Source of the DNA: an uncultured Lachnospiraceae bacterium
GTDB lineage: Bacteria > Bacillota > Clostridia > Lachnospirales > Lachnospiraceae
Assembly (NCBI GenBank): GCA_947630805.1
Contig: CANRIV010000003.1
Coordinates: 1-64,000 of the forward strand
Direction of reading: 5' to 3'
DNA: 64,000 bases
How positions within the stretch are numbered: the first letter of the stretch is position 1; each line of letters opens with the position of its first letter. Position numbers and translations under genes: made by a program. Shown piece after piece: positions 48,619 to 64,000 of the stretch. Below the pieces are notes generated by a model, which searched no databases, was not told the origin of the DNA, and worked only from the letters and a program-made list of their open reading frames with translations.

Positions 48619-48854
48619 AGAAACTCCTTTCTATAAAAAACCGTTATTGTTTTAGATTATCCCAGGGAATCAATAAAATCAATGTTAAAATTTATATTTT
48701 ACATTTTTGACATAAAAGTTTACAAAAAAGACAAAAAAAGTATATCAGTCTTTTTCCAGAAGATTCCGAGCATAAAACTGTAAGATATTTATTGAAAAAT
48801 ATGAAATAATAATATAGAATGGGATAAGATGATAAGAGCATGATAAAAAATTGA

Positions 48855-48863
48855 GGGGGGGGG
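48855..48863. repeat. homopolymer G9 tract in 5' leader of the polysaccharide locus
   Basis: ttgaGGGGGGGGGtagatag in an AT-rich intergenic region. Confidence 0.95.
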
Positions 48864-48956: not shown

Positions 48957-50408
48957 ATGCACATTAAAAAAAGCAGTTGGCTAAAACATATCGACTTTGT
49001 GTTTACGGATTTGATTTGCATTAATATATCTTTTGTAATCGCATATGTCTTGAGATTTATACATTCCGGATTGATAAATCCTTATGCTTCTAACGGATAC
49101 CGGATGATTATCAGCGTCATGATGATAGCACATTTTGTAATTATCTTTTTTTCGGAACATTATTCGGGAATATTGAGACGCGGTTATTTTAAAGAATTTG
49201 TAAAAGTGATAATACATAACATGGTGCTTGTTGGTGGAATTTTTACCTATATGTTTATATTACAATTAGGAGAATCATATTCCAGAACAGTTCTTGTGGG
49301 ATTTTTCTTTATCAATACCATTGTTATGTATCTGGCACATATCATTATGAAAAAAATATATATGCTGCGGGGTGTCAATGAGGCAAACAAACAGAAAATT
49401 TTGATTTTGTCGACGCAGGAGTGTATTGAAGATACATTGGATAAGTTTATGACCGGTGTGGATAAGACCTTTCATCTGGTAGGGATTGCATTGATGACAG
49501 AAGACCGTGCGATAGAAAGGATAAGAGATATACCGGTTGTAGCATACGGTCGGGAGTTATACGACTATGCCTGCCGCAATGTGGTAGATAGCGTGTTGAT
49601 TAGTGTGCCGCTTAAAGATATGGAAAATATTAACGCAGTTGCCAACAAACTTTTAGAGATGGGGATTACTGCCCATATCCGTCTGAATCTTTCTATTTCC
49701 GGTAAGGTAGATACAGTATTGGGTCGGATTAATTCTCTGAACGTTGTCACTTCCAGTGCGAAGACAATATCCTCTGGTGAGGCATTCTGCAAGAGAACAC
49801 TGGATATTGTAGCCGGACTGGTAGGATGTCTGATTACTGCAGTGTTGTTTATTTTTGTAGCGCCTGCGATTAAAATTGCGGACCCTGATGGACCGATTTT
49901 CTTTGGACAGGAAAGAGCCGGAAGAAATGGAAGAAAATTTAAAATATATAAGTTCCGCTCCATGTATGTAGATGCTGAAGAGAGAAAAAAGGAACTGATG
50001 GAAAAAAATAAAATGAACGGCCTGATGTTTAAAATTGACGCCGACCCAAGAATTATCGGTAGTGGTCCGGACGGCACAAAAAAAGGACTGGGGAATTTTT
50101 TGCGCGCCACATCGATTGATGAATTTCCAAATTTCTGGAGTATATTAAAGGGCGATATGAGTCTGGTAGGTACCAGACCGCCTACAATTGACGAATATGA
50201 AAAATACGAACTGCATCACAAAAGCCGCCTGGCTGCCAAACCGGGACTGACAGGATTGTGGCAAGTCAGCGGAAGAAGTGAAATGACAGATTTTGAAGAG
50301 ATTGTCAAACTGGACAATGAATATATAAAAAACTGGAGTATCGGACTGGATATAAAAATATTACTCAAGACAGTTGTAGTTGTATTGACCCGAAAAGGCT
50401 CCGTGTAG
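48957..50408 (+). CDS. exopolysaccharide biosynthesis polyprenyl glycosylphosphotransferase
   Basis: N-terminal TM bundle, CoA-binding-like region; C-terminal sugar transferase KRTLDIVAG...YKFRSMYVDAE...RATSIDEFPNFWSILKGDMSLVGTRPP. Confidence 0.94.
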   Translation: MHIKKSSWLKHIDFVFTDLICINISFVIAYVLRFIHSGLINPYASNGYRMIISVMMIAHFVIIFFSEHYSGILRRGYFKEFVKVIIHNMVLVGGIFTYMFILQLGESYSRTVLVGFFFINTIVMYLAHIIMKKIYMLRGVNEANKQKILILSTQECIEDTLDKFMTGVDKTFHLVGIALMTEDRAIERIRDIPVVAYGRELYDYACRNVVDSVLISVPLKDMENINAVANKLLEMGITAHIRLNLSISGKVDTVLGRINSLNVVTSSAKTISSGEAFCKRTLDIVAGLVGCLITAVLFIFVAPAIKIADPDGPIFFGQERAGRNGRKFKIYKFRSMYVDAEERKKELMEKNKMNGLMFKIDADPRIIGSGPDGTKKGLGNFLRATSIDEFPNFWSILKGDMSLVGTRPPTIDEYEKYELHHKSRLAAKPGLTGLWQVSGRSEMTDFEEIVKLDNEYIKNWSIGLDIKILLKTVVVVLTRKGSV

Positions 50409-50465: not shown

Positions 50466-51689
50466 ATGAATCCGAATTTTACAGATATATCAAAAAAACA
50501 TATATTTATTGTAGGATGCAAGGGTATTCCTGCATGCTATGGGGGGTTTGAGACATTTGTTGATAAACTGACGGAATATCGAAAATCAGATGAAATACAG
50601 TATCATGTGGCCAGACTCTTGGACAAGAACGCGTACAATGCAGATAACAGTGAGTACGAATATAACGGTGCGCATTGTTTTGACATTTGCCAGAGAGTGT
50701 CCGGGGCGGCAAGAGCAATTTTTTATGATATTGACGCCATCAATTATAGTTTAGATTATATAAAAAAATATGGAATTAAGGACCCGATTATTTATGTTTT
50801 GGCCTGCAGAATCGGACCATTTATTGGTCATTTAAAAAAGAAAATTCACAAAGCAGGCGGAAAACTTTATGTGAATCCGGATGGACATGAATGGAAGAGA
50901 GCTAAGTGGAGTCGTTCAGTAAGAAAGTATTGGAAGACTTCAGAGGGTCTGATGGTAAAAAATGCGGATCTTCTTGTATGTGACAGCAGAGGAATAGAGA
51001 GTTATATCAGGGAAGAGTATGCGCAGTACGCTCCCCAGACTACTTTTATTGCATATGGGGCAGAGACAAGCAGTTCTACGCTTACTGATACAGATGAAAA
51101 AGTGGTAGAATGGTATAACAAATTTCAGATTAAACCAAAACAGTATTATCTGATTGTCGGGCGTTTTGTTCCGGAAAATAATTTTGAGAGAATGATTCGG
51201 GAATTTATAAAGTCCCGGACCAAGAAGGATTTGGTCATTATTACGGATTATATGAACAACGCTTTATATGACAAAATTCTGGAAAAGACACATTTTGATC
51301 GGGATCCCCGGATTAAATTTGTCGGAACGGTTTATGACCAGCCGCTACTGAAAAAAATCCGGGAAGATGCCTATGGATACCTGCACGGACATTCCGTGGG
51401 AGGGACAAATCCCAGTCTGCTGGAGGCTCTGAGCAGAACAAATTTAAATCTGCTTTTTGACGTACCTTTTAACAGAGAGGTAGGGGGACGGGGCGCAAGA
51501 TATTGGACTCATGAATATGGCGGTCTGGCCCATGTCATAGAACAGGTAGATGCTATGAGCGAGCAGGAAATAAAGGAAATGGGGGATCAGGCAAAAGAGA
51601 GAGTGAATAAATATTACAGTTGGGAATATATCAGAGACAGATATGAGGAACTGTTTGCGCAAAGTTTCTTATCGTTGGAAGAGGAGTAA
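50466..51689 (+). CDS. glycosyltransferase with DUF1972 domain
   Basis: KHIFIVGCKGIPACYGGFETFVDKLTEY; GGTNPSLLEALSRTNLNLLFDVPFNREV. Confidence 0.9.
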   Translation: MNPNFTDISKKHIFIVGCKGIPACYGGFETFVDKLTEYRKSDEIQYHVARLLDKNAYNADNSEYEYNGAHCFDICQRVSGAARAIFYDIDAINYSLDYIKKYGIKDPIIYVLACRIGPFIGHLKKKIHKAGGKLYVNPDGHEWKRAKWSRSVRKYWKTSEGLMVKNADLLVCDSRGIESYIREEYAQYAPQTTFIAYGAETSSSTLTDTDEKVVEWYNKFQIKPKQYYLIVGRFVPENNFERMIREFIKSRTKKDLVIITDYMNNALYDKILEKTHFDRDPRIKFVGTVYDQPLLKKIREDAYGYLHGHSVGGTNPSLLEALSRTNLNLLFDVPFNREVGGRGARYWTHEYGGLAHVIEQVDAMSEQEIKEMGDQAKERVNKYYSWEYIRDRYEELFAQSFLSLEEE

Positions 51690-51690
51690 A

Positions 51691-53049
51691 ATGAAAGTTT
51701 TACACTACGCGTTAGGATTTCCTCCATACAGAAGCGGTGGTCTGACCAAATTCTGTATGGATTTAATTCTTGCACAAAAAAGTAGAGGATTTGAAATAGC
51801 AATGATGTGGCCAGGAAAGTTTAGCCTTACCGGTCATTTTGTGCGTTTAAAGGAAAGTATAGTGACAGTGAAAAACGGGGAGGAAACCATTCCCGTAACA
51901 AGTTTTGAGGTGATAAATCCTCTGCCTGTTTCACTGGATGAAGGAATAAAAGAAACCGGAAAATTTATGGAAAAATGCCCCAACCCTCAGGTGTTTCGGG
52001 CTTTTTTAGAGACTTGGAAACCGGATGTTATTCATTTACATACACTGATGGGGCTGCACAGAGAATTTTTGCAGGAAGCGAAAGCGTGTGGCATTAAGAT
52101 TGTTTTTTCCAGTCATGATTATTTTGGAATATGCCCTAAGGTAACCATGTTCCGGAATGGACAGGTATGTAGTGGAAATTGCAGTCTATGTGAGCGTTGT
52201 AATGAGAGCGCGCTGTCAATCGGTAAGATTAAAATCCTCCAATCCGGTCTTTACAGAGCACTAAAAGATACAAAGCCCGTACAGGCACTCAGAAAGAAAA
52301 ACAGACAGAATTTTTTTGAAGAAGCAAGCCGGGAATCTCTATCTCACGAAAGCGGAGGAGCGCAGACAGAAACATACCGGGCGCTTCGGCAGTTTTATAT
52401 AGAAATGTTTCAGATGGTAGATATCATTCATTATAACAGCACAGTGACAGAATCTGTGTACCGGAAATGGCTTCCCGAAGATATCCGGGGAAAGGTTATC
52501 AGCATCTCTCACGGAAATATTAAAGACAACCGCAAAAGAAAGACTTTTACGGGAAAATTAAAAATGTCATTTTTAGCAGCGAATTCTGCGTCGAAAGGAT
52601 ATTTTATTTTAAAACAGGCGATGGATGAACTGTGGGATGAGGGAATCCGGGATTTTGAATTGAATCTGTTCTATCCGGTGGCAGATCCTGGCGAATACAT
52701 GAAACTGCATAAACGTTTTTCTTATGAGGCGTTAGAGAAAATATTTGATCAGACAGATTTATTGATGGCGCCGAGTGTGTGTTATGAGACGTTTGGATTT
52801 ACGGTGTTGGAAGCATTGAATTTTGGCGTGCCTGTTATGGTCAGCACGAATGTGGGAGCGAAAGACCTTCTGGAAAACGCAAAATACGGAATGGTGATAG
52901 AGCCGACAAAAGATGCAGTGAAACAGGCAGTAAAGTATGTTATAGAAAATAGAGAAATTCTGACAGAGTACAATCGAAGAATTGTGGAGGAGATGAATCT
53001 GGACAGAGTGATAAACTTTGTGGAACAGATAGATGCTTTATATGATTAG
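51691..53049 (+). CDS. GT4-family glycosyltransferase
   Basis: MKVLHYALGFPPYRSGGLTKFCMDL; SHDYFGICPKVTMFRNGQVCSG; APSVCYETFGFTVLEALNFGVPVMVS. Confidence 0.9.
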   Translation: MKVLHYALGFPPYRSGGLTKFCMDLILAQKSRGFEIAMMWPGKFSLTGHFVRLKESIVTVKNGEETIPVTSFEVINPLPVSLDEGIKETGKFMEKCPNPQVFRAFLETWKPDVIHLHTLMGLHREFLQEAKACGIKIVFSSHDYFGICPKVTMFRNGQVCSGNCSLCERCNESALSIGKIKILQSGLYRALKDTKPVQALRKKNRQNFFEEASRESLSHESGGAQTETYRALRQFYIEMFQMVDIIHYNSTVTESVYRKWLPEDIRGKVISISHGNIKDNRKRKTFTGKLKMSFLAANSASKGYFILKQAMDELWDEGIRDFELNLFYPVADPGEYMKLHKRFSYEALEKIFDQTDLLMAPSVCYETFGFTVLEALNFGVPVMVSTNVGAKDLLENAKYGMVIEPTKDAVKQAVKYVIENREILTEYNRRIVEEMNLDRVINFVEQIDALYD

Positions 53050-53094
53050 AAAGTAAGAAAAAGCAAATAAATTTACAAAGGGGAAGCGGTAATC

Positions 53095-53868
53095 ATGAAT
53101 ATTCCCAAAGTAATCCATTACTGTTGGTTTGGCGATAAAGAAATGCCGGAAAAAGAAAAAAGCTGCATTGAGACATGGAAAAAATTTTTCCCGGACCATG
53201 AATTGAAATTATGGAATGAGAAAAATTTTGATTACTCCCAATGCAGTTTTGCAAAACAGGCTTACGACATGAAAAAATATGCGTTTGTGAGCGATTATGC
53301 CAGAGTCAGACTGCTGTATGAATATGGCGGAATATACATGGATACAGATGTAAAAGTATTAAAGCCTTTTCCGGAAACAACTGCGAAAAAGGGATTTATG
53401 GGCTTTGAAAACCAAACGATGGTAGGAACGGCAGTTATGGCGTGCGAGCCGCACAATGAAATCATAAAAGAACTGCTTTCTTATTATGAAAACCATGATT
53501 TTATGGAAAAAAACGGCGATATCAGCAATATAGCAAATGTTATTATCCTGACAGATATCTTAAAAGAAAAAGGTCTGATACCGGATGGGCAAAGACAACA
53601 GGTGTCAGGATTTGATATTTTTAACAGAGAAGTGTTCTACCCTAAAAAATTAAGTGAAACGCAGTTCAGAGTCACGAAAGATACCTGTGCGATTCATTTA
53701 TTTTCCTGCAGCTGGCTGTCTGAAAGAGAAAAAAAACGGGGAAACAATAAAATTTGGATTGAAATAGCCCGCCCCGCCCTCAGAAAAATGCGAAAAGCAG
53801 GCAGGAGCGTTCTGGGAAAAGAGCGCGTCAGAAAATTAGAGATAAAAATCCGAAACAAACTGAAATAG
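53095..53868 (+). CDS. glycosyltransferase, GT32-like (DxD)
   Basis: MNIPKVIHYCWFGDKEMPEKEKSCIETWKKFFPDHELKLWNEKNFD; YEYGGIYMDTDVKVLKPF. Confidence 0.92.
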   Translation: MNIPKVIHYCWFGDKEMPEKEKSCIETWKKFFPDHELKLWNEKNFDYSQCSFAKQAYDMKKYAFVSDYARVRLLYEYGGIYMDTDVKVLKPFPETTAKKGFMGFENQTMVGTAVMACEPHNEIIKELLSYYENHDFMEKNGDISNIANVIILTDILKEKGLIPDGQRQQVSGFDIFNREVFYPKKLSETQFRVTKDTCAIHLFSCSWLSEREKKRGNNKIWIEIARPALRKMRKAGRSVLGKERVRKLEIKIRNKLK

Positions 53869-53945
53869 AAAGAAAATCTACAGTTTGAAACCGGTACTTT
53901 GCGTGAGTATGAGGAGATGTTCCTGTAAGCACAAGGAGGCAAACA

Positions 53946-55325
53946 ATGTGGAATGTCATATGTGGCAAAATATTTTCTGAGTGTGTGGAAAAATTCAGAG
54001 CAGAAAATATCAGATATTTTGTGCTTAGAAATTATGAATTGCTGCCACAGAGCAATGCGTCAAAGGATGTAGATATAGTAATTGAGCCCGGAAAAATAAA
54101 AAGAAGCATTGAAATTGTGCAAGAGGCTTATGCACATGGTAACATGACAAATTTTTATCATGTGGTATTTGAAAAACTCCACTGTCTGCACGGAATGGAT
54201 TCCGACCATCACAACAGGATTCATATTGATTTGATGGAAGGATATCGGGCGAAAGGATATGAAATATTTTCGTTTGACGAGATGTATGAACACACGACAT
54301 GGCAGAAAAACTTTTGTGTGATTGATAAATATTTTGAGGGAGTCATGCTTCTGATTTATAAACAGTTTGGATATAAAAGACCAAAACTGAAAGAGGCATA
54401 TCAGAAAAAAATAAAGGAAACTTATGATTTGTTTCCGGATAAATTGGAAGAACAGATAGCGCAGGTCACTTCTGTGAAACTGTCGAAAGAAATCATGGAA
54501 GCTGTCGAAAAAGAAGATTTTGTAACAGTCTTGGCAAAATCAGATGTCTTTACCAGGCAACTGCGGCGATATGTTTTGAAAAAACATCCCCTTGTCACAA
54601 TCGGAAGAATACTCCATTATTTCTGTCAGAAAATATGGAGAATTATTTTTACATACCGGGCGCACGCCCGCGTTTTTGCGGTAATAGCTCCTGATGGAGC
54701 GGGAAAAACGACATTTATAGAAATGCTGACAGAAAAACTGGATTTTTATTATGCCAATCTGCCGCAGGATGAGAGGATTCATTTATATCATTTCAGACCC
54801 GGCGTGTTTCCTAATCTGGGAGAATTGGGAGAAAAGGCAAAAGTTATGCAGCAGGATGACAACTGGACCAATCCACACAGAGGAAAACCGGCAAATTTTC
54901 TAAGTTCCATGATAAGAATTTCTTACTATACGATGGATTATATTATCGGATGGATGAAATGTGTGCGAAAAGATGTCCAATATGACAGGACCGTTGTGTT
55001 TGACCGGTATAGTTACGACCTTATTGTTGACCCGCTCAGAACAAAATTGAACCTGCCAAAGGGTTTCAGAAAATTCTTTGTTTCTCTCACACCACAGCCA
55101 AAAGTTGTTTTCGTGCTGGACACGACAGCCGATATAATTTATAAAAGAAAACAGGAGCTGGCGAAAGAAGAGATCAGCAGACAGTTGGAAGAGTATCGCA
55201 AACTGGCCTTAAGCCATAGAAGATTTCATATCATCAATGCCGGAAGGACGCCGGATGAGATGTCGGATGAGGCAGTTAAAATATTTTTGAATGAGTATAC
55301 TAGAAAGGTGGAAAAACATGAATAA
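53946..55325 (+). CDS. nucleotidyltransferase-like / thymidylate-kinase-like P-loop fusion protein
   Basis: N-term YFVLRNYELLPQSNASKDVDIVI (NTase-like); C-term FAVIAPDGAGKTTFIEML (Walker A), VVFDRYSYDLIVDPLR (DRxxxD-type). Confidence 0.72.
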   Translation: MWNVICGKIFSECVEKFRAENIRYFVLRNYELLPQSNASKDVDIVIEPGKIKRSIEIVQEAYAHGNMTNFYHVVFEKLHCLHGMDSDHHNRIHIDLMEGYRAKGYEIFSFDEMYEHTTWQKNFCVIDKYFEGVMLLIYKQFGYKRPKLKEAYQKKIKETYDLFPDKLEEQIAQVTSVKLSKEIMEAVEKEDFVTVLAKSDVFTRQLRRYVLKKHPLVTIGRILHYFCQKIWRIIFTYRAHARVFAVIAPDGAGKTTFIEMLTEKLDFYYANLPQDERIHLYHFRPGVFPNLGELGEKAKVMQQDDNWTNPHRGKPANFLSSMIRISYYTMDYIIGWMKCVRKDVQYDRTVVFDRYSYDLIVDPLRTKLNLPKGFRKFFVSLTPQPKVVFVLDTTADIIYKRKQELAKEEISRQLEEYRKLALSHRRFHIINAGRTPDEMSDEAVKIFLNEYTRKVEKHE

Positions 55326-56589
55326 AACTAAAATATTTGTATCTGCATTTGCCTGTGAGCCAAACAGAGGCTCGGAGCCGGGAGTGGGATGGCATTGGGT
55401 GTTGGAAATGTCAAGAAATTTTGAATTGTGGGTACTGACCAGAGAAGAAAATAAAAAAAGTATAGAACACTGGATGGAAGAACAGAATCATCCATACGAT
55501 ATCCATTTTGTTTATTATGATATGCCGAAGATGCTGCGTTTCTGGCAGAAAAAAGGACGGGGAATTCGGATTTATTATGTGTTGTGGCAGAAACTTTCCA
55601 ATAAAGTCGTCAGAAAGACAATGAAAACAAACGATATACCTATTTATCATTTACTGACTTATGGGAATTCTCTGTGGTGTGTCAGCAGATATGGAATGAA
55701 GCAATTCTTTATCTGGGGACCGACAGGCGGAGTGGATACGATACCGAAAGAGTTTTGCAAATATTATGATAAGCGGTCAAGGCTCATTGAGTTTGTGAGA
55801 AGGACAGTAGTAAAAACGCTGCCATTTAATTACGGTTTTCAAAAAAGATGTAAGAATGCGAATCTGATTTTTTGTAAATCTTATAATATGTACTATGCTG
55901 TTCCGGAAAAATATAGAGAGAAAGCAATGCTTTTTACGGATGTGGCAGTAGAGATGAAAGATTTCGGAGAACAGAAAAAGGAAAAGACGGATAAGATAAA
56001 ATATATTGCGGCCGGACGCCTGGATGCCTGGAGAGGTCTTGACCTTCTGATAGAAGCTTTTGATGCTGCCTATCAGAAAAATCAAAATATTACGTTAGAA
56101 ATTTTGGGCCGGGGAACAGATGAGGCCCGTCTGCATACCTTAATCCGAAGGAAGAAACTGGACCATTGTATCCATATGTGTGGAGAGGTGGCCATGGAAG
56201 AATATTTTAAAAAGATGAACGATGCGGATGTCATTGTCAATTCCAATCTGAAAGAAGGAGCGGTAACGGTATCTTTTGATTCTATGGCACTGTCTAAGCC
56301 GTTAATATGCGTGGATACGGGGGGATATACCCGGTACTTTCACAATGATTATGCCATAGTTTTGGAGAGACGGGACAGAGAGCAGCTGATAAAAGATTTG
56401 ACAGAGGCAATTCTGAAAATGACAGACAAAGAACTAGGACAGGAATTTGGCAGAAAAGCGCATGCGGCAGGAGAAAAATACACCTGGAAACACAAGGGAG
56501 ATGCGATATATACAGAGATAGAAAAAGCATATAAAGGAGATTGTGGACAGGCAGATGAAAAGAGTAGCAGCAATCGTATTGAATTATAA
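55318..56589 (+). CDS. GT4-family glycosyltransferase
   Basis: MNKTKIFVSAFACEPNRGSEPGVGWHWVLEMSRNFELWVLTREEN; AAGRLDAWRGLDLLIEAF; start moved to ATG 55318. Confidence 0.88.
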   Translation: MNKTKIFVSAFACEPNRGSEPGVGWHWVLEMSRNFELWVLTREENKKSIEHWMEEQNHPYDIHFVYYDMPKMLRFWQKKGRGIRIYYVLWQKLSNKVVRKTMKTNDIPIYHLLTYGNSLWCVSRYGMKQFFIWGPTGGVDTIPKEFCKYYDKRSRLIEFVRRTVVKTLPFNYGFQKRCKNANLIFCKSYNMYYAVPEKYREKAMLFTDVAVEMKDFGEQKKEKTDKIKYIAAGRLDAWRGLDLLIEAFDAAYQKNQNITLEILGRGTDEARLHTLIRRKKLDHCIHMCGEVAMEEYFKKMNDADVIVNSNLKEGAVTVSFDSMALSKPLICVDTGGYTRYFHNDYAIVLERRDREQLIKDLTEAILKMTDKELGQEFGRKAHAAGEKYTWKHKGDAIYTEIEKAYKGDCGQADEKSSSNRIEL

Positions 56590-57415
56590 TTCCTTTGAGG
56601 ATAGCGAAAAATGTGTTATGCTTTTAAAGAGACAAAAAGGGGTTGATTTAAAAGTTATAATTGTAGATAATTGTTCTACCGACCAGAGTGAACAGAAACT
56701 GACGGCTTTGGGAAAAACGCAAGATGTCACCGTGATAGCAAACAAAGAAAACAGAGGTTATTCGGCGGGAAACAATATTGGATTGAAGCTTGCAGCCGAA
56801 CAGGGATTTGACTACAGTCTGATTATTAATCCTGATGTAGAGTTGAGAGACGAGACATATGTGCAGCAGGCGCTGGAAAAACTGGAAGAAGATTCCCGGA
56901 TTGTGGTACTGGGTACTGATGTAAAAAATATGAAAGGACAATGCCAGAATCCTATGAGAGAAATGGGGTACTGGGAAGAAATTTTCTGGCCCCTGTCAAC
57001 AATCAAAGGAAAGCTGAGAGGTAAGCCATCTTATATCTGCGATAATGCGAAAGAAGGATATTGTGAGATGGTGTCCGGCTGTTGTTTTTTTGTCCGTATG
57101 GATTTTATACAAAAAACGGGTTATCTGGATGAAAAATCCTTTATGTATTTTGAGGAGTCCATTCTGGCAGCCAGAGTGGCAAAAGAGGGATATCGGGAAT
57201 ATTTTCTGCCGGAACTGACGGCATATCATATGCACAGAGAGTCTGAAAAAGGAAATCCCAAAAAGAAATGGGACAATTATTATAAAAGCAGAAAATATTT
57301 CTTTGAAAAATATAGCAGCCATGGAAAATTGAAACGCAGCATGATATGCGCTAGTATATGGCTTCAAAAAAAGGTAATGGCGGCAAGAGAAGTTAGAAAA
57401 TACAAGAGTATTTAA
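56555..57415 (+). CDS. GT2-family glycosyltransferase
   Basis: MKRVAAIVLNYNSFEDSEKCVMLLKRQKGVDLKVIIVDNCSTDQSE; NKENRGYSAGNNIGLKLA. Confidence 0.92.
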   Translation: MKRVAAIVLNYNSFEDSEKCVMLLKRQKGVDLKVIIVDNCSTDQSEQKLTALGKTQDVTVIANKENRGYSAGNNIGLKLAAEQGFDYSLIINPDVELRDETYVQQALEKLEEDSRIVVLGTDVKNMKGQCQNPMREMGYWEEIFWPLSTIKGKLRGKPSYICDNAKEGYCEMVSGCCFFVRMDFIQKTGYLDEKSFMYFEESILAARVAKEGYREYFLPELTAYHMHRESEKGNPKKKWDNYYKSRKYFFEKYSSHGKLKRSMICASIWLQKKVMAAREVRKYKSI

Positions 57416-57434
57416 AGAGTAAGGAAACAGAGAT

Positions 57435-58733
57435 ATGAGTGTACTGGAAGGTTTGACCCCCTCAATAAAATTTGAATTAAAACATGATATTTACTGGCCG
57501 ATTATTGTGATTACCGTGCTGAGGCTGGGAGGCTTTTCTGATAAAATAGTCTTTTTGGGGATTGTTTTCTGGCTGGTCTTAATGACCTGGCAGGCGCGTA
57601 AAATTATTGTTCCCCGTGTCAAAGGTTTGTGGCTGTACACAGGGTCGATTATTCTTTCTATTCTTTTGGGAATGTTATCCTACCAAATCAGAGATGTCGT
57701 AAGAGACGTGTATTATGTAGTACCTACAGTCATTGCCATAATTTTTGGATACTATTGTGGAATGATAAAAAGAAAAAATATCCGAAAGACAATATATCTG
57801 TCGGGATTTATTATATCTGCCTATGCCTTCTGGAGACTGATTACTGATTTGGGATTGTTAAGCGATTTTGGCGCCCTGAGAGGAGTCATGGGAACAAAAC
57901 TCTATGAAGTGTGCGCTATTTTTGGAGCGATGTTTATAGAATGTTTTGTTTACAAAAAAGTATTTTTTTCAAAGTGGGCAGACCGCATAATTTTAATGCT
58001 GATGATGCTGCAGATTTCACTGTCCCTGGGAAGAAGTGCGATTATTCAGGCGTTGGGAATTATACTGACAGGCATGCTTCTGGCAGGATATTACCGGCAG
58101 GATAAAATGAACAGTTTAAAAAAAATCATTCAGATTGTCAGTCTGATTATCGTTGTTTTTGCTGTAGCAAAATTTGTTCTTCCTCAGGAAGCAACAGAAA
58201 TGTTTGCCGAGAAGTGGGAGAACAACATAGAAGAAATGGACAGCTCCCAGGAATTTGACAGTACAGCTGATGCGATGCACAACTGGAGAGCTTATGAGAT
58301 ACAGTGCGCCAAGGAACAATGGAAAAAAAGCAATATTCTCGTACAGTTAATTGGAGAGGGCTTTGGCACAAGTATTCAATTAAAATATGTTCCTTATAAC
58401 TGGGAATTCATCAGCGGGGATACGATACCGCTTCTGCACAACGGATGCTATACCATGCTGCCTAAAGGCGGATTACTGGGCGTGGCGGCAATGTTGTGGA
58501 TTATGATATTTGGCGCGGCTTATATGCTGTTGAAATATGGAAAATCATACCGGGGAATACAAAACGAACTAATTGTGCTCGTAGCCATAGGATTTGGTAT
58601 GGCGTGTGAGACTTATGTTACGAATGGTATGGTGGCACAGTCCTATAATCTTGCATGGGGACTGCTCGTGGGTATTATAAATTATGATATTGTTCATTAT
58701 AAAAGCGTGAAATCAGGAGAGGAAAATAAGTGA
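57435..58733 (+). CDS. O-antigen ligase/polymerase-like membrane protein (putative Wzy)
   Basis: About 10 hydrophobic segments, large extracytoplasmic loop; located among glycosyltransferases. Confidence 0.7.
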   Translation: MSVLEGLTPSIKFELKHDIYWPIIVITVLRLGGFSDKIVFLGIVFWLVLMTWQARKIIVPRVKGLWLYTGSIILSILLGMLSYQIRDVVRDVYYVVPTVIAIIFGYYCGMIKRKNIRKTIYLSGFIISAYAFWRLITDLGLLSDFGALRGVMGTKLYEVCAIFGAMFIECFVYKKVFFSKWADRIILMLMMLQISLSLGRSAIIQALGIILTGMLLAGYYRQDKMNSLKKIIQIVSLIIVVFAVAKFVLPQEATEMFAEKWENNIEEMDSSQEFDSTADAMHNWRAYEIQCAKEQWKKSNILVQLIGEGFGTSIQLKYVPYNWEFISGDTIPLLHNGCYTMLPKGGLLGVAAMLWIMIFGAAYMLLKYGKSYRGIQNELIVLVAIGFGMACETYVTNGMVAQSYNLAWGLLVGIINYDIVHYKSVKSGEENK

Positions 58734-60493
58734 CAGATTACCAAAACTATTTAAAATCAAATCAATATGAATGGGTATTTTTTGATTTTTTTGATACGAT
58801 TGTTCATAGAAAAGAAAATAAAGATTCTCTGAAAATGATGTGGGCAAAAATACTTTTGGAAAAAGGTATTGCAAATGGAGATATTCGCAATGAAAACCTG
58901 AAAGCGTGCCACCTGTATGAAATTCGATGCAGAGCAGAAAAATTGGAATGGGAAAATCTTGAGGAGAAAAAAGAGCCGGAATATTCTGAAGTATGCGGCA
59001 AAATGTATAATTTTTTATCGAACAGTCTGACAATCACAGAAGAAGAATTTTGCAGGCTTAGTCTGGAATGTGATGTACAGGCAGAATTATGCGTACAATT
59101 TCCGGATGATGACACGATAGAAATGATGAAGGATGCAAAGGCAAACGGAAAAAAGATTGCCATCGTGTCCGATTTTTATCTGCCGAAAGAAGCATTTCAA
59201 ATCTTTTTGTCGCATCATGGTATTGTAGGACTGGTAGATGAAATTTACATATCCAGTGATTATGGCGTGCGTAAAAGTGATGGAAGTCTGTATGCTGCAG
59301 TAAAGAAAATCTTAGGTATTGATACTGCGCTAATGATAGGAGACAACCTTCAATCTGATAAAATAAATGCACAAAATAACGGACTGGAAGCGATTCAAAA
59401 AAAATATGAGGAAGTTGAAATTCCTGTAAGAGATGAAAAATATATCAGACAAGAATTGAAAAAGAAGATAAAACAGTGTGATGCGGCAGGCCCCTATGCG
59501 GGGTATATTTTAAATGTCTATCTGTTTATTGAAAAACTGTACCTGGAGTGTTTAAAAAACGGGTATAAAAAAGTATATTTTTTGTCCAGAGAGGGGCAGA
59601 GGCTCAAAGAACTGTTTGATTTGTATATAAGAGATAAAAGCCACATTCAAACAAATTATTTATGCCTGTCCCGCTATTCCCTGATTAAAGCATCGCAGGA
59701 AGAAGAACAGAAAAAAGAATTTCAAAAATATCTTAACGCCTGTGGTATCACTGAAACGGAAGATATTGTTGTCGTAGATATCGGCTGGAAAGGAACAGTG
59801 CAGAAATATCTCAGTGAAATCATAGAAAATAAAATTCACGGGTATTATCTGGGAATTCGGGAAGAATCAGAATGTTCCTTTCAAAGCAAAAAAACGGGAC
59901 TGTTGTATGATGCTTTTCCGCAGAAAAGCCTGACGTATCATTTGTATTGGTTTGGAAGTATCTTTCAGGAACAGCTGCTGGTAGCAGATCATGGAACGGT
60001 ACTCCGTTATGAAAACGCTACTCCGGTAATTGATGATGATCCGGAAAATGATGTCATTTATCAGCATCTGCTGCCCAAACGACAGAAAGAGAATGTTATT
60101 TTTGAAGAGACGATAAAGCTGTTTCAAAATACCTGCTATTATTTAAGTGATTTTGAAATGATGATGGCAAAAAATTATTTAAGAATGACGTTAAATACAT
60201 CCCGGGCATACCGCTCGGAAAGAAATATTCTAAACGGCATGAATACAACCTTTGACAATGAAGCATTAAGACTTTCGGGAGTCAAAGAAGAGCATTATTC
60301 TATGAAGCAGAAAATCAAAAGAATGTTGCGCAGGTACAGAGATGTCTATCGGGAAAATAAAGAGCCGATAGAATATCTGAGAATATTTGCCCTTTATTCC
60401 AAACAGTTAAAACTGAATTGGCTGTATCCGGTATTGGCAAAGATTGTATATCGGGCCGAATTAAGATTTCTGAGGAAAAGGAATGGACGTTAA
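58730..60493 (+). CDS. HAD-superfamily protein of polysaccharide loci (COG5610-like)
   Basis: EWVFFDFFDTIVHRKENK; KKIAIVSDFYLPKEAFQIFL; MIGDNLQSDKINAQNNGLEAI; long C-terminal extension; GTG start. Confidence 0.75.
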   Translation: MTDYQNYLKSNQYEWVFFDFFDTIVHRKENKDSLKMMWAKILLEKGIANGDIRNENLKACHLYEIRCRAEKLEWENLEEKKEPEYSEVCGKMYNFLSNSLTITEEEFCRLSLECDVQAELCVQFPDDDTIEMMKDAKANGKKIAIVSDFYLPKEAFQIFLSHHGIVGLVDEIYISSDYGVRKSDGSLYAAVKKILGIDTALMIGDNLQSDKINAQNNGLEAIQKKYEEVEIPVRDEKYIRQELKKKIKQCDAAGPYAGYILNVYLFIEKLYLECLKNGYKKVYFLSREGQRLKELFDLYIRDKSHIQTNYLCLSRYSLIKASQEEEQKKEFQKYLNACGITETEDIVVVDIGWKGTVQKYLSEIIENKIHGYYLGIREESECSFQSKKTGLLYDAFPQKSLTYHLYWFGSIFQEQLLVADHGTVLRYENATPVIDDDPENDVIYQHLLPKRQKENVIFEETIKLFQNTCYYLSDFEMMMAKNYLRMTLNTSRAYRSERNILNGMNTTFDNEALRLSGVKEEHYSMKQKIKRMLRRYRDVYRENKEPIEYLRIFALYSKQLKLNWLYPVLAKIVYRAELRFLRKRNGR

Positions 60494-61505
60494 TGTATCA
60501 GTAATCTGCCCGGTCTATAATGTGGAAAAGTATCTGGAAAAAGCAGTACAGTCCATACAGGGGCAGAAATATCAATCTTATGAAATCATTCTGGTAGATG
60601 ATGGCTCGACGGACAAATCCGGTCATATGTGTGATGAATATGCGCGTGCATATCATAATATCCGCGTTGTGCACCAGAAAAACCAGGGCCCCGGAACTGC
60701 CAGAAATAATGGATTGAAAGAGGCAAAAGGAAAATATATATATTTTATGGATCCGGATGATTATATCGATTCAGCGCTGCTTGCAGAAAACATAAAACTG
60801 TTGGAGGAAAACAGCGCTGATTTTGTCATGTTCAATTATATCCGGGAAGTTTACGATGCAGAAGAAAAAATTGTACATACCGAAGAAGGGGTGGTTTCTC
60901 TTCAGGGAGTTTGGACAAATGCGCAGATGAAAGAACATTTTCTGAAATATTTTACGGAGAATGTTCCGTCTGCTTATTTTGTATGGAACAAAATATACCG
61001 CAAGACATTTCTGACAAAAAACCATATTCTTTTTTCTGAAATTCCTATGGGAGAAGATACCAATTTTAATCTTGATATATATTCTAAAAACTATCAGTCG
61101 GTTTATAATCCTAAAATTTATTATCATTATTGCTCCAGAAGTTCTTCCGCTGTCAACCGCTATCATCCGGACAGATTTGAGTATGAACTCCTTCTGGCTG
61201 ACAGAATCCGGGAATTAATCGGAAAACTGGGAAAGAGCAGCGATAAAAACTATATAGACCTGATGTATTTTTATTATTTCCGGGCACTGGATTTTGAGAC
61301 GCATAATATTTTAAGAAAGGAATGTATGTTAAATTTCCGACAGAAAAAAGACAGATTAAAGAAAATTCTTGAAAACCAAAGAATCCGGGACAGCCTTTGG
61401 AATCTGTCCGTGATAAGGGGTCAGACAAAACCGGGGCGGTTAAAAATTTATCTGCTGCGTAGGCGTATGACAGGAATATGTGTGCTGTTGATGAGCGTAC
61501 TGTAA
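60483..61505 (+). CDS. GT2-family glycosyltransferase
   Basis: VSVICPVYNVEKYLEKAVQSIQGQKYQSYEIILVDDGSTDKSGHMCDEYA; YFMDPDDYID. Confidence 0.94.
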   Translation: MDVNVSVICPVYNVEKYLEKAVQSIQGQKYQSYEIILVDDGSTDKSGHMCDEYARAYHNIRVVHQKNQGPGTARNNGLKEAKGKYIYFMDPDDYIDSALLAENIKLLEENSADFVMFNYIREVYDAEEKIVHTEEGVVSLQGVWTNAQMKEHFLKYFTENVPSAYFVWNKIYRKTFLTKNHILFSEIPMGEDTNFNLDIYSKNYQSVYNPKIYYHYCSRSSSAVNRYHPDRFEYELLLADRIRELIGKLGKSSDKNYIDLMYFYYFRALDFETHNILRKECMLNFRQKKDRLKKILENQRIRDSLWNLSVIRGQTKPGRLKIYLLRRRMTGICVLLMSVL

Positions 61506-61512
61506 GAAAAAG

Positions 61513-62652
61513 ATGGAGAAGAGTGTGATGAAAGAAAAAAAACTAATTGATGAAATTTTTTATCCTTCAGATACAGGGAAAAAACATATTCTATTCCGCC
61601 ATGCAGACAAAATTTGGATTATGCCTGTAAAAGGAAAAAAGCAGGCTCTGGAAATGTACCAGCCCTCTACAAAGAAGGGAAAGATGTTGAAGAAAGCTGT
61701 TTTGTGGTGCGCAGGTATTCCGGTAATTTCTTCGGTATTAGGCATATCTGTGCAGCGGATGGAATTCCACCCTGAAATACATAAATATCTGCAGAAACTG
61801 TTGGAGAAAGAGGAGTTTTATATTGCCGCATACCGGGGAGATACCAGCTCAAAACAGAACGATAAGATCACACTGCAGTTGTATCAGACGGACAAAATTA
61901 TTGCCTATGCAAAACTGGCGAAAGATGCAGATGTGATAAAAACATTTGAACATGAAATTAAAGCATTGGATTTTCTTGCGCAAAAAGAGATACAGGATAT
62001 TCCAAAAATAATTGGAGAAACCACAGTTGGCAGGATTCGGGTTTTTGTGCAGACGACAAAGAAGAAACTATATCAGAAGTTTCCGTTAAAATTTGAAAGC
62101 CGGCATATTGACTGCATTGATCATATTGTAAAAAAGACCAGACAGAAACTGCATTACGAGGATACAGATTTTTATGTTTATATGCAGTACCTGAAGTCGG
62201 AAATCGAAACTTTTGATGTGCAGGATGGGAAGGTGCTCAAAGAGGCGATTACCATGATAGAAAAGCGCTTAAACAGCCATTCCTGTGAGTATGCCTTTGC
62301 CCATGGAGATTATACGGCAAGTAATATGTATGAACAGAAGGGAAAAATCCAACTGTTTGATTTTGAATACTGTCGCAATTCTATGCCCTGTTATATTGAT
62401 GTATTTCATTATATGACGCAAATCCTGTTGTCAGGATACAGAAACAGTTTTCATAAAGTTATAAAACTGTATGAGAGCAGAAGAACAATGCTGGAGCAAT
62501 ATATGAACGATACAGATTTTATTTATCTGTGTTATCTGGTTTATATTGTGAGCTTTTACGCGAAAAGGACAGAGACGGATGTCTTGATTATGCAGGAAAG
62601 ATACCGCCGCCGGATACAACTGATAAAATATTTGATACAGAAACAAAAATAG
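61513..62652 (+). CDS. APH/choline-kinase-like phosphotransferase
   Basis: FAHGDYTASNMYEQKGKIQLFDFEYC (HxDxxxxN and DFE-type motifs). Confidence 0.75.
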   Translation: MEKSVMKEKKLIDEIFYPSDTGKKHILFRHADKIWIMPVKGKKQALEMYQPSTKKGKMLKKAVLWCAGIPVISSVLGISVQRMEFHPEIHKYLQKLLEKEEFYIAAYRGDTSSKQNDKITLQLYQTDKIIAYAKLAKDADVIKTFEHEIKALDFLAQKEIQDIPKIIGETTVGRIRVFVQTTKKKLYQKFPLKFESRHIDCIDHIVKKTRQKLHYEDTDFYVYMQYLKSEIETFDVQDGKVLKEAITMIEKRLNSHSCEYAFAHGDYTASNMYEQKGKIQLFDFEYCRNSMPCYIDVFHYMTQILLSGYRNSFHKVIKLYESRRTMLEQYMNDTDFIYLCYLVYIVSFYAKRTETDVLIMQERYRRRIQLIKYLIQKQK

Positions 62653-62653
62653 T

Positions 62654-63226
62654 ATGGGGAAAGGCGAAGAGAGGATGCAGAAGGCAGATTTTTACAGGCT
62701 CCTTTTGGAACGGCTGATAGAAAATGTTCAGACAATGTTTGAATTATTGTTGTTTGCGCTCCCCTTGGGAATAATTGTCGGTGCGATAACTTTTTTGCTG
62801 ATGCGCCGGAAGGAAAAAAAAGCAGGAAAGCAGTATTGCCGGGGAGAAAAAACGGTTACAGTTCTTTTTGTAACGTATATATTTATACTTGCTCAACTCA
62901 CAATATTTTTCCGTCCTTTTGGTAAGATTGCGGAAATTGAAATAATTCCGTTCCGAAGACTGGGAGGACTTCGATATATTGTTTTATATAGCCTCAGCAA
63001 TATAATAGCGTTTGTACCGATGGGAATTTTTCTTCCCCAGATAGGCTGGAAGAAGAAAACGCTGTTAGATGTTCTTGTGATGGGATTTTTCTGTAGTGTT
63101 CTGATTGAGGCATTTCAACTGATTTTGCAGTGCGGCGTATGTCAGACGGAAGATTTGATTATGAATACGCTAGGTGCAGGAATTGGATATTGGATATATA
63201 AAAAAAGAAAAGGAAAGGATAACTGA
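62654..63226 (+). CDS. VanZ-like family membrane protein
   Basis: IIPFRRLGG...YIVLYSLSNIIAFVPMGIFLPQIGWK...LIEAFQLILQCGVCQTEDLIMNTLGAGIGYWIY. Confidence 0.88.
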   Translation: MGKGEERMQKADFYRLLLERLIENVQTMFELLLFALPLGIIVGAITFLLMRRKEKKAGKQYCRGEKTVTVLFVTYIFILAQLTIFFRPFGKIAEIEIIPFRRLGGLRYIVLYSLSNIIAFVPMGIFLPQIGWKKKTLLDVLVMGFFCSVLIEAFQLILQCGVCQTEDLIMNTLGAGIGYWIYKKRKGKDN

Positions 63227-64000
63227 TGAATGACAGCACAAAAATTAAGGGGGGGGGCAGACGCCTTGAAATAGATGTTGCCCGTGGACTTGGTATTATC
63301 CTTGTAGTGCTGGGGCATGCTTTTCCGGACGCCTCGGCAGCCGGAGGACAGGAGGCCATGGGAAATATCAGCAGGGTAATATTTAATACGATTTATAGTT
63401 TTCATATGCCATTATTTTTCTTTCTGGCGGGATTTGTGGCAGTGAAAATTTTGGATATGAATGACGGACATGAAAAGGGGAAATATATTGCAGGACGTGC
63501 TCGCCGTCTGCTTGTGCCATATTTGATGGCAGCATTATTGTATCTGCCGTTAAAGATTATTCTGGCGAGATATGCAAACAACCCCTACGATATAAGAGAA
63601 TTGTGGAGACTTATCATCGGATGGAATCCAAATTATGCGATGTGGACTTTGTGGACTCTTTTTGCTGCTGCTGTAATAGGGGTTATCGTTGCAACCAAAA
63701 AAAATATTGGGATTCTGTCCGTGGCGGGAATATTATGCGGCATAATTTTATATGATATTCCGCTGGGAGAGTCAGGAATTCCTATGCTTTTACAAAACTT
63801 CGGATATTATTTTGTGGGATTGTGGGCCTGCATGAATTATGAAACAATGAAAAAGAAACTGTTCCGAAAGAGCGTTGTGGCCGGAGCGGCAGTAGTATTT
63901 ATTTTGTGCAATATGATATCACAGTATCTGAAGTATTATAACTATAGGGGAGAAACCGTGTTTCTCAGGGGAACAGCGCTCAGTGGAATTTTGCTTGTGC
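63226..64000 (+). CDS. acyltransferase family 3 (membrane acyltransferase), truncated by window edge
   Basis: Open frame to edge: MNDSTKIKGGGRRLEIDVARGLGIILVVLGHAFPDASAAGGQEAMGNISRVIFNTIYSFHMPLFFFLAGFV...; start overlaps vanZ-like stop (TGATG). Confidence 0.88.
   Translation, partial: MNDSTKIKGGGRRLEIDVARGLGIILVVLGHAFPDASAAGGQEAMGNISRVIFNTIYSFHMPLFFFLAGFVAVKILDMNDGHEKGKYIAGRARRLLVPYLMAALLYLPLKIILARYANNPYDIRELWRLIIGWNPNYAMWTLWTLFAAAVIGVIVATKKNIGILSVAGILCGIILYDIPLGESGIPMLLQNFGYYFVGLWACMNYETMKKKLFRKSVVAGAAVVFILCNMISQYLKYYNYRGETVFLRGTALSGILLV
63249..63257. repeat. homopolymer G9 tract within codons 8-11 of the acyltransferase gene
   Basis: aaaattaaGGGGGGGGGcagacgc; in frame as IKGGGRR. Confidence 0.97.

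Follow-up and report, generated by a model that had tools for sequence, protein, structure and literature searches.

The window analysed here is a 64,000-nucleotide stretch (positions 1 to 64,000 of contig C3) from an uncultured Lachnospiraceae genome (G000), and it ends in a co-directional cluster of polysaccharide genes (Table 1). The cluster opens with a polyprenyl glycosylphosphotransferase, by its model assignment the initiating enzyme, and reaches the window end with a VanZ-like membrane protein gene followed by an acyltransferase gene. The acyltransferase ORF is intact as assembled and continues past the window end. The window part of its product matched Acyl_transf_3 (PF01757) with an E value of 2.3e-28 and 99.6 bits against a curated cut-off of 31, whereas the nearest NCBIfam model, the fucose acetyltransferase NolL, scored far under its own cut-off; on the Pfam match the product is a membrane acyltransferase of the Acyl_transf_3 family. 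Because the stop codon of the VanZ-like gene overlaps the first start codon of the acyltransferase gene (ATG1), translation of the two may be coupled.

Table 1. Features of the acyltransferase locus and its cluster, and genes broken at poly-G runs elsewhere in the genome (window coordinates unless a contig is given).
Feature	Position	Strand	Remarks
Promoter-like TTGAAA-N17-TAGAAT	48792..48820	+	Upstream of leader run; 10/12 consensus matches, by itself no evidence of function
Second window G9 run (C3:48855)	48855..48863	+	Leader, about 93 nt before first gene of same cluster
Polyprenyl glycosylphosphotransferase	48957..50408	+	TIGR03025, 357 bits vs cut-off 296
Cps2T-type beta 1-4 rhamnosyltransferase	50466..51689	+	NF046071, 613 bits vs cut-off 500
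Remaining co-directional glycosyltransferase/polysaccharide genes up to acyltransferase	51643..62652	+	
VanZ-like membrane protein gene	62654..63226	+	TGA 63224-63226 overlaps ATG1 of acyltransferase
Putative Shine-Dalgarno-like AGGAAAGGA	63211..63219	+	6 nt before ATG1, 10 nt before ATG2
Acyl_transf_3 gene, 348 aa	63226..64000, on to contig position 64272	+	ON at G9 from ATG1 (63226-63228)
ATG2, overlapping second start	63230..63232	+	Frame ON at G10 (and G7); candidate start
G9 run, proposed slippage site	63249..63257	+	Exact in sequence; outcome of each length computed
OFF genes at runs	C3:76759, C3:93620, C3:100323, C4:104488, C7:106960, C18:6506, C18:5445		Frame broken exactly at run

A G9 run behind two start codons

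A first-pass annotation had placed a run of nine G at codons 8-11 of the acyltransferase ORF and considered it conspicuous. The run is indeed exact; it begins with the last base of codon 8 (AAG), ends with the middle base of codon 11 (GGC) and reads MNDSTKIKGGGRRLEIDVARG. Only two G runs in the window are longer than 6, this one and the leader run at 48855, both of nine, and Markov models of order 1-5 predict 0.01-0.5 runs of at least nine G in the window. From its position ahead of the cluster, the leader run might tune the whole cluster. The run at 63249 is followed directly by CA; a TA directly 3' of the run was found at 9 of the 22 long runs of this genome described below and at 20 of 32 runs from 30 loci sampled from the family (L089-L118), in all reading frames, against 6-10% for shorter G runs.

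Start codons lie upstream of the run in two frames, and the computed outcome of each run length depends on which one is used (ON and OFF calls are based on reading frames throughout). ATG1 opens the 348-residue protein at G9, while ATG2 opens one of 347 residues at G10 and of 346 at G7. At G8 and G11 the gene is OFF with either start, leaving peptides of 12-16 residues that stop short of the first membrane helix. The annotation had anticipated a strict toggle, in which any gain or loss of one G would throw the ORF out of frame. This is correct for ATG1, from which G8 and G10 give 15 and 14 residues; it does not hold for the gene as a whole, as G10 is readable from ATG2. Since ATG2 is in frame at G10, the acyltransferase gene may stay ON by way of this second start after a gain of one G.

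In Haemophilus licA the start codons are in different frames, and protein can therefore be made at more than one length of the repeat. With ATG1 ON at G9, ATG2 at G10, and G8 and G11 OFF, the acyltransferase gene is closer to this multi-start arrangement than to a strict toggle: as at licA, multiple starts immediately precede the repeat (PMC2992063), but licA has a CAAT tetranucleotide and three starts, and the gene described here has a mononucleotide run and two starts, the use of ATG2 being putative.

Long G runs are in excess and cluster on surface-glycan genes

We counted G runs on either strand of the whole genome (1,837,899 bases, 26 contigs). Twenty-two runs of at least eight G were found (10 G8 and 12 G9, none longer), where continuing the fall-off in G4-G5 and C4-C5 counts on contig C1 leads to an expectation of about 1.0 (Poisson P ~7e-22). 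Half of them (11/22) lie within 64 kb, between C3:48855 and C3:112886, among co-directional surface-polysaccharide genes, a clustering with P ~5e-11 under uniform placement. On C3 the counts from G5 to G9 were 33, 3, 4, 6 and 6, a rebound at lengths 7-9; the corresponding counts on C1 (200 kb) were 31, 0, 0, 0 and 0. Every C3 run has G on the coding strand. By hand scoring, 19 of the 22 runs are intragenic, almost all of them in genes for surface-glycan enzymes, and three lie outside genes (C3:48855, C10:36171 and C13:996). The run-bearing genes include members of the Acyl_transf_3, GT2, GT4, LicD, PMT_2 and sulfatase/LTA synthase-like families. The non-coding G9 at C10:36171 is flanked by inverted arms, GCAAAAGAGGT and ACCTCTTTGC.

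Such runs could in principle arise by chance or codon choice, as glycine-rich linkers that happen to use GGG and do not switch. The window gene is ON as assembled, as this would have it, and some GT2 and GT4 runs coincide with sites at which Gly-Gly is frequent (GGVSAARN at C3:104872). Against it stand the excess of 22 runs over about one, the seven genes broken at their runs (see below) and codon usage, GGG being the least used glycine codon (9.8%). Homologous proteins speak against it as well. The LicD homologues of this genome and of two relatives in the genus (G020 and G021) carry the run 72-75 residues from the start, and run-less LicD homologues have no Gly-Gly at that site; the same is true of run-less acyltransferase homologues. 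With the glycines missing where the run is missing, the runs are not explained by a constraint on the peptide, and we consider an origin by chance or codon choice very unlikely. The first-pass annotation had named a conserved GGG peptide, written with non-G codons in orthologues, as evidence that would count against a switch; the closest relative found, a degenerate gene in G003, starts MQKTHYKEIDIAKG and has no GGG. A contig search with the window acyltransferase sequence matched no relative, and a search of IMG/VR with the flanks matched no copy of the locus from another strain.

Loss of mismatch repair was ruled out as the cause of the runs, since MutS and MutL are both intact in the genome.

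Seven genes are broken exactly at their runs

By hand-scored frames, 12 of the run-bearing genes are ON, among them the window acyltransferase gene and the gene at C3:90686, which is read from an ATG 43 nt before its run. The other seven are OFF, with the frame broken exactly at the run (Table 1), so that the known OFF alleles are at other genes of the set than the acyltransferase. Three are G8 and need +1, four are G9 and need -1; each is thus a single G from ON, and all seven would toggle between 8 and 9. In three of these genes the two halves match successive parts of a single Pfam model: aldo/keto reductase (model positions 35-126 and 131-290), GT2 (1-45 and 54-131) and Acyl_transf_3 (2-94 and 126-324). 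At C3:76759 the part before the run resembles a lipoteichoic acid synthase, and a sulfatase domain makes up the part after it. The Pfam comparison of the two C18 genes covered the downstream half, and at C7:106960 neither half had a Pfam match. Moreover, two GT2 paralogues that share the position of the run differ in state, one being G8 and OFF (C3:100323) and the other G9 and ON (C3:102552).

The evidence comes from one assembled genome per species, in which a single-G error is possible, and the OFF genes might accordingly be homopolymer sequencing or assembly errors at runs that are in fact stable. Illumina sequencing has difficulty with G runs (PMC9187656), and no run exceeds nine. However, A8 runs, equally long and far commoner, break a gene in 0 of 58 coding cases on C3 and C1, versus 7 of 19 for poly-G (Fisher P ~2e-5); the excess and clustering are independent of exact length; and the same pattern recurs in a sister species, which was assembled separately and has contigs named in the NODE style of SPAdes. 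Error as the source of the OFF genes thus appears even less likely than chance or codon choice. The long intact downstream halves that the OFF genes retain would also be compatible with programmed ribosomal frameshifting or RNA-polymerase slippage, which would make more than one product from DNA of constant length. If a dedicated signal were at work, one direction should predominate, but both are needed here (three +1, four -1), and paralogues whose runs coincide in position are unlike in the length of the DNA and in the state of the frame; we regard this as the least probable of the explanations considered.

Two dinucleotide repeats on C3 also break surface-gene ORFs at the repeat: an (AT)11 at C3:113276, in a tandem paralogue of a G8-bearing acyltransferase gene, and an (AT)8 at C3:75489, after 230 aa of a membrane-protein-like ORF. 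From these broken frames, (AT)n may be a second repeat class that switches genes. On the minus strand of C18 (L043:4292-6506), three G9 runs lie in adjoining genes; the acyltransferase frame there stays open into the beginning of the following gene, a GT4 broken (OFF) at a run of its own.

A probable slipped-strand switch of surface acylation

The switch that the first-pass annotation had read into the G9 run is supported by the genome-wide G8-9 set, the seven OFF genes, the GT2 paralogue pair and the LicD homologues. We put the probability that the run at 63249 is a contingency (phase-variation) locus at about 0.83. The run would gain or lose a G by slipped-strand mispairing during replication, and the change in length would shift the frame of a surface-polysaccharide membrane O-acyltransferase: ON at G9 through ATG1, OFF at G8 and G11, and readable at G10 through ATG2, probably at a different level. 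The run would be part of a set of at least 19 intragenic poly-G runs, together with the leader run and the two (AT)n repeats on surface-glycan genes. Because this set would act on surface-glycan genes, one clone could confront phages, antibodies and neighbours with many surfaces. Slipped-strand phase variation, as judged from frames and run lengths, is well supported for the set; for the window gene we infer it, and likewise the rate of slippage, population-level variation, translation from ATG2 and an acylation phenotype. The intact MutS and MutL count against a switch, as they should lower slippage at mononucleotide runs.

The mechanism, poly-G phase variation, is a known and classic one; cgtB of Campylobacter is an example (PMC6437147). 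In the Campylobacter phasome as analysed with PhasomeIt (runs of at least 7 G), lengths 9 and 10 are commonest (PMC6321876), and the run lengths found here match that range, which favours a switch. The likeness extends to the many runs of at least 7 G with 9 commonest, their mostly intragenic location in surface glycosyltransferases and related enzymes, and the mixture of ON and OFF genes within one genome; with seven other genes broken exactly at their runs, the set looks like a Campylobacter-style on/off bank. It differs in belonging to another phylum, in the presence of MutS and MutL, in lengths reaching only nine, in having G on the coding strand in all C3 runs, and in that variation is here deduced from sequence. 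Another parallel is Bifidobacterium breve, likewise a Gram-positive gut commensal, in which G runs of about 9-12 lie within a sortase-pilus gene and slippage, measured in mice, restores a single ORF (PMC9187656). There one or two pilus clusters are concerned; here there are about 20 loci, mainly glycan enzymes, known as sequence only.

Poly-G runs in related genomes

Among 23 genomes of the genus, one per species, G021 and G020 have run sets similar to that of the window genome, G019 has two runs, and most have none. Runs of nine in G002 (C17:26-88) lie at a contig end and were set aside as a probable artefact. In G021, an uncultured Lachnospiraceae metagenome bin (Lapin-030 bin97), the stretches read hold 20 runs (8-10 G each), which once more fall in genes for acyltransferases, glycosyltransferases and LicD, several of the genes being OFF. 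An acyltransferase pair shared by the window genome and G021 (52% identical) has its runs about 15 residues apart, which suggests that the runs come and go in the evolution of this pair. In G021, too, an N6_N4_Mtase DNA methyltransferase gene is split exactly at a G9 (L068:4985-5726), one half covering positions 1-105 of the model and the other 141-221, and is a candidate phasevarion.

At least one G9 was present in 193 of 299 genomes of a family sample. Thirty runs inspected in six rich family genomes are spread over surface genes, genes of other kinds and intergenic sites, so that a family-wide phasome is plausible, not established. At four loci (L094, L100 and L118 in G077, L101 in G206) a TTGAC(A/G) and a TAGAAT or TATCAT flank the poly-G at roughly promoter spacing, a layout that suggests promoter-spacer switching in other Lachnospiraceae.

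Lachnospiraceae are a major Gram-positive gut family, and phase variation in gut commensals is known mainly as DNA inversion. We consider it probable that some Lachnospiraceae have both mismatch repair and a large Campylobacter-style phasome of poly-G runs, which varies surface glycans at random; (AT)n repeats would add to it, as would, in relatives, runs in promoter spacers and a DNA methyltransferase that can be switched. The literature searched held no description of a poly-G phasome in this family, which is weak evidence, as most subscription journals lay outside the search; what it offered on slipped-strand mispairing mentioned Lachnospiraceae only as chicken microbiota, and on phasomes in Firmicutes it offered a Campylobacter review. 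If such phasomes exist, consensus metagenome annotation hides the switching and records switchable genes as split or broken.

One intergenic G9 has an identical context in two species, at L071:5454 in G021 and L079:4723 in G019, and is perhaps part of a shared mobile or conserved element.
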